Positions 16,584 through 21,570 of a DNA stretch of 58,220 nucleotides are shown here, piece by piece (position 1 is the first letter of the stretch; every line of letters starts with the position of its first letter). The DNA comes from an uncultured Gammaproteobacteria bacterium (GTDB taxonomy: Bacteria; Pseudomonadota; Gammaproteobacteria; Xanthomonadales; Xanthomonadaceae): NCBI GenBank assembly GCA_903942465.1, contig CAJAPA010000144.1:1-58220 (forward strand), written 5' to 3'. The notes beneath the pieces are model-generated. The model searched no databases. It was not told the origin of the DNA and saw only the letters and a list, made by a program, of their open reading frames with translations. The position numbers were made by a program, and so were the translations under genes.

Positions 16584-17180
16584 ATGTCGATTTCGATCCG
16601 CGACGTGCAAGCGCACGAACTGGATGCCATTCTGGCCATGAACAATGCCGCAGGCAGCGGCATTCTGCCGATGAACCAAGGGCAGATCCACTACTTCTGG
16701 CAGCACGCCGACTACTTCCGCGTCGCCGAGTCCGATGACTGTCTGGTCGGCTTCCTGATCGCCATGACCCGTGACGCCGATTACGAAAGCAGCAATTTCC
16801 GCTGGTTCAAGGACCACTACGAAGCCTTCGTTTACGTCGACCGCATCGTCATCGCCAAGGGCCAACGCAGCGCCGGCATCGGCCGTCTGTTCTATGCCGA
16901 TGTGCAGAGTTTCGCGGAAGTGCGGGCGCCGGCCCTGGTCGCCGAGGTGTTCATCGAAGACAGCACCCACCCCGCTCTGCTGTTTCATGGCAGCTTCGGT
17001 TTCCATGAAGTCGGCCAGCATCAGCTGCCGGACTCGCCGCTGCGGGCCGCCATGCTCTACAAGGATCTCTGCAGTTATCCCTTCGTAAACACCACTTATG
17101 GCGAACAGCTGCCGCCTGTGGTCTGGCTTCAGGCCAGAGTCAAACCGCAAACCGGCGGCCATCTGGCGACGGGAACTTGA
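16584..17180 (+). CDS. GNAT family N-acetyltransferase
   Basis: ATG 16584 (MSISIRDVQAHELDAIL) follows a TGGAG ribosome site and is preferred over the ORF-track start at 16563. The 198-aa protein has the GNAT fold, with the acetyl-CoA loop in VDRIVIAKGQRSAGIGRLFYADVQ and the C-terminal FHGSFGFHEVGQH strand-helix pair. The acceptor is unknown. Only one base separates its stop from the minC start, so it is the first gene of the min operon. A role in cell division is possible but is only inferred from position. Confidence 0.85.
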   Translation: MSISIRDVQAHELDAILAMNNAAGSGILPMNQGQIHYFWQHADYFRVAESDDCLVGFLIAMTRDADYESSNFRWFKDHYEAFVYVDRIVIAKGQRSAGIGRLFYADVQSFAEVRAPALVAEVFIEDSTHPALLFHGSFGFHEVGQHQLPDSPLRAAMLYKDLCSYPFVNTTYGEQLPPVVWLQARVKPQTGGHLATGT

Positions 17181-17181
17181 G

Positions 17182-17937
17182 ATGGGCGGCGCGACGGTCA
17201 GCTACGAACAATGCGGGGAATTGAAATTCGGCCAAGTGGGCATCGCCAATCTGCGCATCCGCACACTGGATATCGCCGCCCTGAAAAACGAAATGCAGGA
17301 GCGCGTTGAGCGCGCGCCGAAACTGTTCCGGCACGCGGCGGTGATTCTTGATTTCAGTGCCCTGCCCGCGTGTCCGGATGTCGAAACCACGGACGCGTTG
17401 ATCGATGCCCTGCGCAACGCCGGCGTCATGCCGGTCGCCATCGCCTACGGCACGCCGGCCGTGGAAAAACTGGCCGAACAGGTCGGTCTGCCGATTCTCG
17501 CCAAATTCCGGGCTTCATTCGAACGTGACGACGGCCCGGAGCCGGCACGCCCGGCACCGCCTTCCGAAAGCAAACCCGCGCCAGCCGCGGCAGCCGCACC
17601 GAGCCAGGAACCGGGCCTGTTGCAGACCCAGCCCTTGCGCTCGGGCCAACAGGTATACGCCGCCGGCCGCGATTTGACCGTGTGCGCCATGGTCGGTGCC
17701 GGTGCCGAAGCCATTGCCGACGGTTCCATCCACATTTACGGCCCATTGCGTGGGCGCGCTCTGGCCGGCGCCTCGGGCAATACCCAGGCACGGATTTTCT
17801 GCCGCGAATTCAACGCCGAGCTGGTCGCCATCACCGGCACATACAAGGTTCTGGATGAAATTCCGAAAAAACTGCTGGGCAAAGCGGTGCAGATCTGGCT
17901 CGACAAAGACCAGCTACGCATCGAAGAACTGGCTTAA
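17182..17937 (+). CDS. minC: Septum site-determining protein MinC
   Basis: MinC inhibits FtsZ polymerisation away from midcell. The start MGGATVSYEQCGELKFG at 17182 gives 251 aa. The N-terminal FtsZ-binding domain spans roughly residues 1-110 (LRIRTLDIAALKNEMQERVERAPKLF, AVILDFSALP). A Pro/Ala-rich linker follows (PARPAPPSESKPAPAAAAAP). The C-terminal beta-helical dimerisation and MinD-binding domain has LRSGQQVYAAGRDLTVCAMVGAGAEAIADGSIHIYGPLRGRALAG. It lies one base after the GNAT gene and 36 bases before minD. Confidence 0.95.
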   Translation: MGGATVSYEQCGELKFGQVGIANLRIRTLDIAALKNEMQERVERAPKLFRHAAVILDFSALPACPDVETTDALIDALRNAGVMPVAIAYGTPAVEKLAEQVGLPILAKFRASFERDDGPEPARPAPPSESKPAPAAAAAPSQEPGLLQTQPLRSGQQVYAAGRDLTVCAMVGAGAEAIADGSIHIYGPLRGRALAGASGNTQARIFCREFNAELVAITGTYKVLDEIPKKLLGKAVQIWLDKDQLRIEELA

Positions 17938-17973
17938 TATGATTCAACGACATTGACAGACAAGGAGCGCATT

Positions 17974-18783
17974 TTGGCAGAGATCATCGTAGTCACATCC
18001 GGCAAGGGCGGCGTCGGCAAAACCACTTCCAGCGCGAGCATCGCCTGCGGACTGGCCAAAGCCGGCAAAAAGACGGTGGTCATCGATTTCGACGTCGGCC
18101 TGCGCAATCTCGACCTGATCATGGGCTGTGAACGCCGCGTGGTTTACGACTTCGTGAACGTGGTGCACGGCGAAGCCAGCCTGAAACAGGCCCTGATCAA
18201 GGACAAGCGCTTCGACAATCTGTATGTCCTGGCTGCTTCGCAGACCCGCGACAAAGACGCACTGACCCGCGAAGGCGTCGAGAAGGTGCTCAAGGATCTC
18301 GCCGGCGAAGGATTCGATTACATCCTTTGCGATTCGCCGGCCGGCATCGAAAAAGGCGCCTATCTGGCCATGTACTACGCCGACCGTGCGGTGGTCGTGG
18401 TCAATCCGGAAGTATCCTCGGTACGCGACTCGGACCGCATTCTCGGCCTGCTCGCTTCCAAGACCCAGAAAGCCGAAGCCGGCGAACACATCACCGAGCA
18501 TCTGCTGCTGACCCGCTACAATCCGGCCCGTGTTGAAAAAGGCGAGATGCTGTCGATCGGCGACGTCGAGGAAATCCTCGGGCTGAAGGTGGTCGGGGTG
18601 ATTCCGGAATCGCCGGAAGTGCTGCAGTCTTCCAACTCGGGCAACCCGGTCATCCTGGATGAAAACTCCGATGCCGGACAGGCCTACACCGACGCCGTCG
18701 CCCGCATCCTCGGCGAAGACCGTCCGATGCGCTTCACCACCGTCGAGAAGAAGGGCTTCTTCTCGAAAATGTTCGGAGGTTGA
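17974..18783 (+). CDS. minD: Septum site-determining ATPase MinD
   Basis: MinD is a ParA-type ATPase that brings MinC to the membrane and oscillates with MinE. The canonical N-terminus AEIIVVTSGKGGVGKTTSSASIA begins at a TTG codon (17974) preceded by AAGGAG, so TTG is the start; the ORF-track start at 17953 is upstream of the ribosome site. The protein has 269 aa with the deviant Walker A KGGVGKTT, switch region VVIDFDVGLRNLDLIMG and a C-terminal amphipathic membrane-targeting helix ending KKGFFSKMFGG. Confidence 0.97.
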   Translation: MAEIIVVTSGKGGVGKTTSSASIACGLAKAGKKTVVIDFDVGLRNLDLIMGCERRVVYDFVNVVHGEASLKQALIKDKRFDNLYVLAASQTRDKDALTREGVEKVLKDLAGEGFDYILCDSPAGIEKGAYLAMYYADRAVVVVNPEVSSVRDSDRILGLLASKTQKAEAGEHITEHLLLTRYNPARVEKGEMLSIGDVEEILGLKVVGVIPESPEVLQSSNSGNPVILDENSDAGQAYTDAVARILGEDRPMRFTTVEKKGFFSKMFGG

Positions 18784-18786
18784 GCC

Positions 18787-19065
18787 ATGGGACTTCTGCG
18801 CAACATCATAGAACAGCTGGAAAAACTCGACAGCAAACCGACCTCGGCGTCCACCGCCAAGAACCGCCTGCAGATTCTGGTGTCACAGTCCCGCAGGGAT
18901 GCCAGCGCCCCGGATTACATGCCGCGCCTGCGCAGCGAACTGCTGGAAGTGATCAAGAAATACGTGCAGGTCAATGACGAAGCGGTCAAGGTCAACTTCG
19001 AAAAAGACAAGGACGGCATCCAGGAAGTCCTCGACATCCAGATTGCCCTGCCCGACAAGAGCTGA
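18787..19065 (+). CDS. minE: Cell division topological specificity factor MinE
   Basis: A 92-aa MinE, which stimulates MinD ATPase and drives pole-to-pole oscillation. The N-terminal membrane and MinD-binding helix is MGLLRNIIEQLEK, followed by SASTAKNRLQILVSQSRRD, the anti-MinCD segment, and a C-terminal dimerisation domain (YMPRLRSELLEVIKKYVQVN). Its start is three bases after minD, with GGAGG overlapping the minD end. The stop is three bases before the GTG of the next gene. Confidence 0.96.
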   Translation: MGLLRNIIEQLEKLDSKPTSASTAKNRLQILVSQSRRDASAPDYMPRLRSELLEVIKKYVQVNDEAVKVNFEKDKDGIQEVLDIQIALPDKS

Positions 19066-19068
19066 TCC

Positions 19069-19572
19069 GTGGGTTTCGAGGCGGACGCAGCGGTCGTGCG
19101 CCTGCACGACATCGCTATTGAACAGGCCCGGCAACTGCTGGGCCTGTTTGATTTGGAACTGGTTCTCGTTCCGGACGGCGAGGCCATCCCCGGCAGCTAC
19201 TGGGGCGAGTGCGAGGCCGGACTGATCGGTACACGCGTCCATGTACGCACCGACACCCCGGTGCATTCGCTGTTGCATGAGGCCTGCCATCTCATCGTTC
19301 TGCCCCTGGAAAAGCGGGGGGCCGTGCATACCGATGCCAGCGATTCGGTGCTGGAAGAAGATGCCACCTGTTATCTGCAGCTGCTGCTGGCTGACCGGAT
19401 TACCGGCTTTGGATTCGCACGCGCCTGCGCCGACATGGACACCTGGGGCTACAGCTTCCGGCTCGGCTCAGCGCGCGCCTGGTTTGAACAGGACGCCGAC
19501 GATGCCCGTGCCTTCCTGCACACGCGGGGACTGCTGGACCTGCCCGACCCAGCCGAGGCTTCAGCCGATTAG
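19069..19572 (+). CDS. Putative HExxH metalloprotein downstream of minE
   Basis: A 167-aa protein starting at GTG, three bases after minE. It contains HSLLHEACHLIV, an HExxH zinc motif with H70, E71 and H74. A second acidic segment, VLEEDATCYLQ (E96/E97), lies about 23 residues downstream in ExxA-like form, as expected for a third zinc ligand of a gluzincin. No signal peptide or membrane helix is seen, so it is probably cytoplasmic. The start MGFEADAAVVRLHDIAIEQARQLLGLFDLELVLV looks alpha/beta. I do not recognise a named family. Protease activity is inferred only from the motif, and position ties it to Min expression. Confidence 0.7.
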   Translation: MGFEADAAVVRLHDIAIEQARQLLGLFDLELVLVPDGEAIPGSYWGECEAGLIGTRVHVRTDTPVHSLLHEACHLIVLPLEKRGAVHTDASDSVLEEDATCYLQLLLADRITGFGFARACADMDTWGYSFRLGSARAWFEQDADDARAFLHTRGLLDLPDPAEASAD

Positions 19573-19620: not shown

Positions 19621-21570
19621 GTGAACATCCAACGCCTTGCCTTGACCCTCGCCGTATCCGCCAGCCTGCTCGGCCTGTCCGCCTGCAGCCCGAAAACCGG
19701 TGATGGCGCTTCGACAGAAGCCGCGTATGCCAATGAGACCGCCGATGAATTCATCGCCCGCGTCAACCGCGAGCTGACCGAAGCCTATCCGGAAATCACT
19801 TCCTCACAATGGCTGGCCTCGACCTACATCAACAGCGATTCCGAACGCATCTCGGCCAAGGCCAATGAACGCTATCTGGGCATGTTGAGCAAGTACATCG
19901 CCAAAGCCAAGACCTTCCCGGCCGATGCCAAAATGACGCCGGAAACGGCACGCGCCCTGCACCTGCTGAAAATCGGCGTCACCCTGCCGCCGCCGAACGA
20001 TCCGAAAGCCCTGGCCGAAATGACCGGTCTGGCCACCAAGCTCGAAGGCATGTACGGTTCCGGCAAGTACTGTCCGGACAGCAAGAAACCCGAGGACTGC
20101 CTCGACATCGGCGCCGTGTCCAAGATTCTGGCGGAGCCTACCAGCACTTACGACCAACAGCTGAATGCCTGGAACGGCTGGCACACCATCGCCATGCCGA
20201 TGCGCAAGGATTACCAGCGCTTCGCCGAATTGTCCAACCAGGGCGCCAAGGATCTGGGCTTCGGCAACACCGGCGAACTGTGGCGCTCGGGCTACGACAT
20301 GAGCCCTGCCGATTTCCAGAAGGAAAGCGATCGGTTGTGGGGCCAAGTCGAACCGCTGTACAAGGAACTGCAGTGCTACACCAAGAACAAACTGGTCACC
20401 AAGTACGGCGACAAGGGCCAAATCAACGGCATGATTCCGGCGCATCTGACCGGCAACCTCTGGCAGCAGGATTGGGGCAGTCTCTGGCCGATCCTCGAAC
20501 CCTACAAGGGCGCCGGAAGCCTCGACATCAACAGCGTGCTGCAGAAACAGCATGACAAGGTACTGAACGAAAAACTGGCCGCCGCCGGCGGTGCTGCAAC
20601 ACTCAGTCCCTTGAAATTCGCCGATATCTCGCACGAAGCCGACCTGCAGCAGGCCAAGGATATGGCACGTCTTTCGGAAAGCTTCTATACCGGTTTAGGG
20701 ATGCCGAAACTACCCGAATCGCATTGGTCCAATGCACAATTCATCAAACCGCGTGACCGCGATGTGGTCTGCCACGCCAGCGCCTGGGACATGGACCTGA
20801 AAGGCGATGTACGCATCAAGATGTGCATCACCCCGACCGAAGAAGATCTGACCACGCTGTACCATGAGTACGGCCACGTTTATTACTATCTGGCCTACAA
20901 CAAACTGCCTATCCTGTTCCAGGGCGGCGCACACGACGGCTTCCATGAAGCCATCGGCGACACCATCGTGCTGTCGATGACGCCGGAATACATGAGCTCG
21001 ATCGGTCTGATCGACAAACCCGCCGTCAGCCAGGAAGCCGTGATCAACGGCCAGATGCGCATGGCCTTGGCCAAGGTCGCGTTCATGCCCTTCGGTCTGA
21101 TGATCGACCGCTGGCGCTGGGGCGTGTTCGACGGTTCAATCAAACCGGATCAGTACAACAAAGCCTGGTGGGATCTGAAAGCCAAATACCAGGGCGTGGC
21201 TCCGGCTACCGCGCGCGGCGAAGAATACTTCGATGCCGGCGCGAAATACCATGTGCCGGGCAACACGCCTTACACCCGCTATTTCCTGTCGCACATTCTG
21301 CAGTTCCAGTTCTACAAAGCCCTGTGCGATGCGTCCGGCTACAAAGGCCCGCTGTACCAGTGCAACTTCGCCAACAACCCGGAAGCCGGCAAGCGCTACT
21401 GGGCCATGCTGAGCAAGGGCTCCAGCCAGCCCTGGCAGAAGACCATGAAGGAACTGACCGGCAAGGAAGAAATGGACGGCTCCGCGGTGCTGGAATATTT
21501 CGCGCCGCTGCAGAGCTGGCTGAAGGAACAGAACAAGGGCCAGCAATGCGGCTGGCAGGCTCCGGAATAA
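19621..21570 (+). CDS. M2-family peptidyl-dipeptidase (ACE-like) lipoprotein
   Basis: A 649-aa homologue of angiotensin-converting enzyme, starting at GTG with GGAG upstream. The N-terminus is a lipoprotein signal ending in LGLSACS, so it should be anchored to a membrane facing the periplasm. The gluzincin site is TTLYHEYGHVYYYL (H415, E416, H419), with the third zinc ligand Glu443 in HDGFHEAIGD. Bacterial M2 enzymes cleave C-terminal dipeptides and may serve nutrient peptide recovery. Paired cysteines such as those in CPDSKKPEDC could form disulfides. The Rieske oxygenase gene begins nine bases downstream. Confidence 0.93.
   Translation: MNIQRLALTLAVSASLLGLSACSPKTGDGASTEAAYANETADEFIARVNRELTEAYPEITSSQWLASTYINSDSERISAKANERYLGMLSKYIAKAKTFPADAKMTPETARALHLLKIGVTLPPPNDPKALAEMTGLATKLEGMYGSGKYCPDSKKPEDCLDIGAVSKILAEPTSTYDQQLNAWNGWHTIAMPMRKDYQRFAELSNQGAKDLGFGNTGELWRSGYDMSPADFQKESDRLWGQVEPLYKELQCYTKNKLVTKYGDKGQINGMIPAHLTGNLWQQDWGSLWPILEPYKGAGSLDINSVLQKQHDKVLNEKLAAAGGAATLSPLKFADISHEADLQQAKDMARLSESFYTGLGMPKLPESHWSNAQFIKPRDRDVVCHASAWDMDLKGDVRIKMCITPTEEDLTTLYHEYGHVYYYLAYNKLPILFQGGAHDGFHEAIGDTIVLSMTPEYMSSIGLIDKPAVSQEAVINGQMRMALAKVAFMPFGLMIDRWRWGVFDGSIKPDQYNKAWWDLKAKYQGVAPATARGEEYFDAGAKYHVPGNTPYTRYFLSHILQFQFYKALCDASGYKGPLYQCNFANNPEAGKRYWAMLSKGSSQPWQKTMKELTGKEEMDGSAVLEYFAPLQSWLKEQNKGQQCGWQAPE

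Follow-up and report, generated by a model that had tools for sequence, protein, structure and literature searches.

The window analyzed here, namely the whole stretch of 58,220 nucleotides from an uncultured gammaproteobacterium of the Xanthomonadaceae (contig CAJAPA010000144.1), carries on its + strand the genes minC (17098-17937 as the ORF is listed; the true start may be internal), minD (17953-18783), and minE (18787-19065), which are followed by an ORF at 19069-19572 (+) that starts with GTG and encodes a protein of 167 amino acids. This protein belongs to a conserved family, which we call Q, and is a candidate hydroxylase of the translation factor EF-P. Exactly three bases separate the stop codon of minE (19063-19065) from the start of Q, and the spacing and the shared strand allow co-transcription of the two genes. 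Three stretches in the Q gene, all on the + strand, deserve attention: the codons for HEACH (residues 70-74; 19276-19290) with the candidate metal-binding histidines, that for His87 (19327-19329), and those for Glu96 and Glu97 (19354-19359), one of which may supply a carboxylate ligand. Directly downstream of Q, at 19621-21570 (+), is an ORF for what we take to be an M2-like (ACE-type) peptidase, with a HEYGH motif of its own and a lipobox-like N-terminus; of 80 Lysobacterales loci, 38 have an M2 homologue in the vicinity of Q.

In the nearest genomes, Q homologues are 87% and 86% identical to the window protein and keep the same start and spacing. Q is present as a single copy in 54 of 61 related genomes and, among 274 Gammaproteobacteria sampled, in 71 (split over two contigs in one of them); outside this class it is rare in the rest of the phylum. 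Plasmids and phages were also searched and gave no match, and Q was hence rejected as a gene of mobile elements. Among 169 distinct homologues, His70, Glu71, His74, and Glu97 are invariant, and Glu96 is kept in 168. His87 is present in 154 and replaced by Asp in 12, which rules it out as an obligatory third ligand and leaves it as a frequent residue of the site. Furthermore, Glu49-Ala50-Gly51, Arg60, Thr63, Ser67, Arg83, Met123, Trp126-Gly127-Tyr128, Arg131, Gly133, and Asp142 are nearly fixed in the same set, and so many near-fixed residues suggest that Q acts on one specific substrate. No model in Pfam, NCBIfam, or PHROGs was reached by Q, the best Pfam score being that of Reprolysin_5 (E = 0.051, below the family cut-off), and searches of the PDB by sequence returned empty or chance-level matches. 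The initial annotation of this locus, which described a GTG-started ORF for 167 amino acids from an unrecognized family, three bases after minE and with HEACH and a downstream Glu, is thus confirmed and extended to conserved homologues, in a number and degree of identity far beyond chance; homologues without the HExxH histidines, which it had named as evidence against its reading, were absent from the 169.

An AlphaFold2 model of Q was confident (pLDDT 90.1, pTM 0.87) and contains helices at residues 65-77 and 94-108, the latter with both Glu96 and Glu97. At the level of sequence grammar only, HExxH and a Glu in the helix that follows fit the 2-His-1-carboxylate pattern. When the model was compared with the PDB by Foldseek, nothing was found at E <= 0.001 and YfcM was absent from the list; the best match was ArdC (E = 0.52), and the comparison with known metallopeptidases that had been proposed for this protein hence gave no significant match. 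As candidates for a known peptidase family, none exceeded the cut-offs of Pfam and NCBIfam, none was found in PHROGs, and none was significant in the PDB. Q is described here as a conserved, putatively metal-binding protein with a candidate HExxH + Glu site.

The neighborhood of Q differs between the order of the window and the rest of its range. Among 80 named Lysobacterales loci, including those of Arenimonas, Luteimonas, Lysobacter, Xanthomonas, Stenotrophomonas, and Rhodanobacter, 71 have Q behind minE. The 67 loci sampled from other families than that of the window show no MinE beside Q; indeed, among the 68 loci of a class-wide sample, the only MinE neighbor was in L031, a member of that very family, and Q does not show the linkage to minE across its whole range that would mark a component of the Min system. 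Outside Lysobacterales, the recurrent partners of Q are efp and epmA. The three genes efp, epmA, and Q stand in that order and on one strand in 13 of the 68 loci and in 7 of 50 families, with epmA and Q 14-60 bp apart, and a rough estimate that takes families as units puts the probability of such clustering by chance at about 1e-13. Two of these families also carry epmB at this site, in divergent orientation to efp, which brings the whole EF-P pathway together at one place. No other recurrent neighbor was seen in more than 5 families, in a count that set aside antisense ORFs mirroring Q itself.

The distribution of Q among genomes also points to EF-P. Of the 274 sampled genomes, 71 have Q and 16 have EpmC (PF04315), and no genome has both (hypergeometric P = 0.007, a statistic that ignores phylogeny). 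EpmA was present in 67 of the 71 genomes with Q vs 153 of the 203 others (Fisher P = 2.4e-4, again ignoring phylogeny), where a score close to the family cut-off served as the threshold for presence. EarP was found in 7 of the 274 genomes, in none of them together with Q. In all of the 30 genomes with Q that were examined, including that of the window, EF-P has the loop KPGKGQAF of the Lys34 type. The genome of the window has both EpmA and EpmB, with efp adjoining epmB, and no EpmC was called in it. Within 61 relatives of the window, furthermore, only one genome (G043, at C10:6236-6682) bears EpmC, and this genome is among the seven that lack Q, which looks like an exchange of one enzyme for the other within the order.

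EpmC, also called YfcM, is the hydroxylase of Lys34 in EF-P (Pfam PF04315; PDB 3WTR and 4PDN). Its HExxH and Glu form a 2-His-1-carboxylate iron site, and in the E. coli protein the metal ligands are His59, His63, and Glu98 in a site that is required for EF-P hydroxylation (PMC4231759). Q resembles EpmC in several respects: the two are similar in size and share the pattern S-x-L-H-E-x-x-H-x8-R, with HExxH on a helix and an Arg at +9 from the second His; the helix that follows carries a Glu; and both accompany EpmA and EF-P of the Lys34 type, occupying the same genomic niche and never found together in the sample. The first His is 26-27 residues from the Glu in Q but 39 in EpmC, the GYWYxPDGR loop and the VEVKPQA motif of EpmC are absent from Q, and Q has the motifs GSxWGxxEAG and DMDxWGYxFRLG of its own. 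When the profiles of Q and EpmC were aligned with hhalign, P was 2.8e-6 with a probability of 88%, over 21 columns and with nothing beyond the motif. Of the control profiles, M78 and SprT gave P = 1.2e-4 and 3.2e-4, respectively, and YbeY, with a profile built from 5 sequences only, gave P = 0.34 and a probability of 0.2%. A generic resemblance among HExxH proteins is therefore partly the cause of the EpmC match, since M78 and SprT score as well, but EpmC remains the best. The PF04315 model run against 18 members of Q gave a single one at E = 0.17, short of the cut-off, and left the window protein unmatched. Significant full-length similarity between Q and EpmC was thus found neither with PF04315 nor by profile comparison nor by Foldseek, and a straight orthologue of EpmC, which should match PF04315 and the YfcM fold, was rejected. 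By context and site Q appears EpmC-like, but its sequence and fold do not establish it as a member of that family; it may be a highly diverged relative of EpmC or a replacement that arose by convergence.

Other families with a comparable site were also considered. YbeY (UPF0054), a structural neighbor of YfcM, is like Q a small translation-related protein with a metal-binding His pair on a helix, but it has a 3-His site, and the genome of the window has a separate ybeY gene. Zincins of the M78 (ImmA/IrrE), SprT, and ArdC-like types share with Q the HExxH helix and the Glu on the next helix, and their similarity to Q in profile or fold is weak and at the level of the motif, with no match beyond it; unlike these proteins, Q stands in another genomic context and has extra strictly conserved residues.

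A role of Q in the EF-P pathway is strongly supported by these results, and that Q takes some part in EF-P modification, of whatever kind, we regard as quite likely. Our preferred reading, which we hold to be probable, is that Q represents a second, unnamed family of EF-P hydroxylases, with non-heme Fe(II) chemistry in place of proteolysis, and functionally replaces EpmC. Q would then take the place of EpmC in organisms without it and hydroxylate EF-P at Lys34 or a neighboring position, once the factor has been (beta-)lysylated by EpmA. The HExxH histidines and either Glu96 or Glu97 would bind Fe(II) in a 2-His-1-carboxylate site for the activation of O2, and the modified loop of EF-P might be held by a shell composed of GSxWG-x2-EAG, R60-x-D-T-P-x-H-S, R83, and D122-M-x-x-W-G-Y-x-x-R-x-G. 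The family, the conservation of its site, its genome context, and its phyletic pattern are directly observed, and we infer the identity of the metal, the hydroxylation, and the substrate atom alike, namely Fe(II)/O2-dependent hydroxylation of lysylated EF-P.

Alternatively, Q might be a Zn-dependent amidase or peptidase on EF-P, which trims or removes the (beta-)lysyl group or edits the modified loop. The efp-epmA context would be the same, HExxH with Glu is also the classic site of zinc hydrolases, and the absence of EpmB from several of the cluster genomes could be accommodated by an editing enzyme. An eraser should, however, coexist freely with EpmC, and the exclusion of EpmC together with the shared Arg at +9 favors a hydroxylase; we hence consider an amidase improbable. 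We also give little credence to Q as a metalloenzyme of another pathway, in which case the efp-epmA context and the exclusion of EpmC would be by-products of lineage history. Indeed, about four fifths of the Q loci outside the family of the window do not adjoin efp-epmA, and the pattern tests ignore phylogeny. Nonetheless, the efp-epmA-Q arrangement is tightly spaced where it occurs and is found at dispersed points of the Q tree (parsimony counts 6 changes, on a weak and poorly resolved tree whose starred branches force only one change of arrangement), and the exchange with EpmC in G043 falls inside the order. Last, a gluzincin-type protease that ties division-site selection to proteolysis via MinCDE, as the initial annotation had ventured, is highly improbable and was rejected on genome context in spite of the invariant HExxH + Glu and the frequent place behind minE in Lysobacterales, because Q leaves minCDE outside this one order and has efp and epmA as its recurrent partners there, its site and shell are unchanged in those loci, and no peptidase family or fold was matched. 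Of that proposal, the HExxH + Glu site stands while the Min-linked protease does not, and conservation beside minE holds within Lysobacterales but fails outside the family of the window; its fallback, an unrelated passenger of minCDE, was the better half of the guess, and the distribution of Q complements that of EpmC. No literature on minE-linked metalloproteases was found. In the preferred reading as an EF-P hydroxylase, Q would simply have settled behind minE in Lysobacterales, and a Min function is not needed as an explanation; minE is not considered part of the function of Q, and the impression given by its misleading neighborhood is corrected here.

In a survey of EF-P modification enzymes, 143 EpmC vs 358 EpmA proteins were counted, EpmC being present in only part of the EpmA-bearing bacteria (PMC6544042); for most of them, therefore, no enzyme is assigned to the final step of this modification, if they have such a step. 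Q is a concrete candidate for this step in many EpmA bearers without EpmC, including Xanthomonas, Stenotrophomonas, Lysobacter, and Luteimonas, and may exemplify how one enzyme takes over from another in a pathway that serves a near-universal translation factor. No second family of EF-P hydroxylases was found in the open-access papers that were searched, and a name for it may already exist elsewhere. A bolder reading, which we regard as speculative and rather unlikely, is that Q would constitute a second, independent family of Lys34 hydroxylases in many Gammaproteobacteria and that efp-epmA-Q without EpmB would be a complete, previously unseen pathway, in which EpmA charges EF-P with a group other than beta-lysine. 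EpmB was undetected in 6 of the 13 genomes with the efp-epmA-Q cluster (G152, G216, G249, G273, G317, and G327) vs 3 of the 58 others with Q, and the group attached by EpmA in these six may therefore not be beta-lysine.

As a separate observation, on a Lysobacterales MAG contig (L119) where no minCDE match was found beside Q, an EF-P-like gene follows Q on the same strand at a distance of 5.9 kb.
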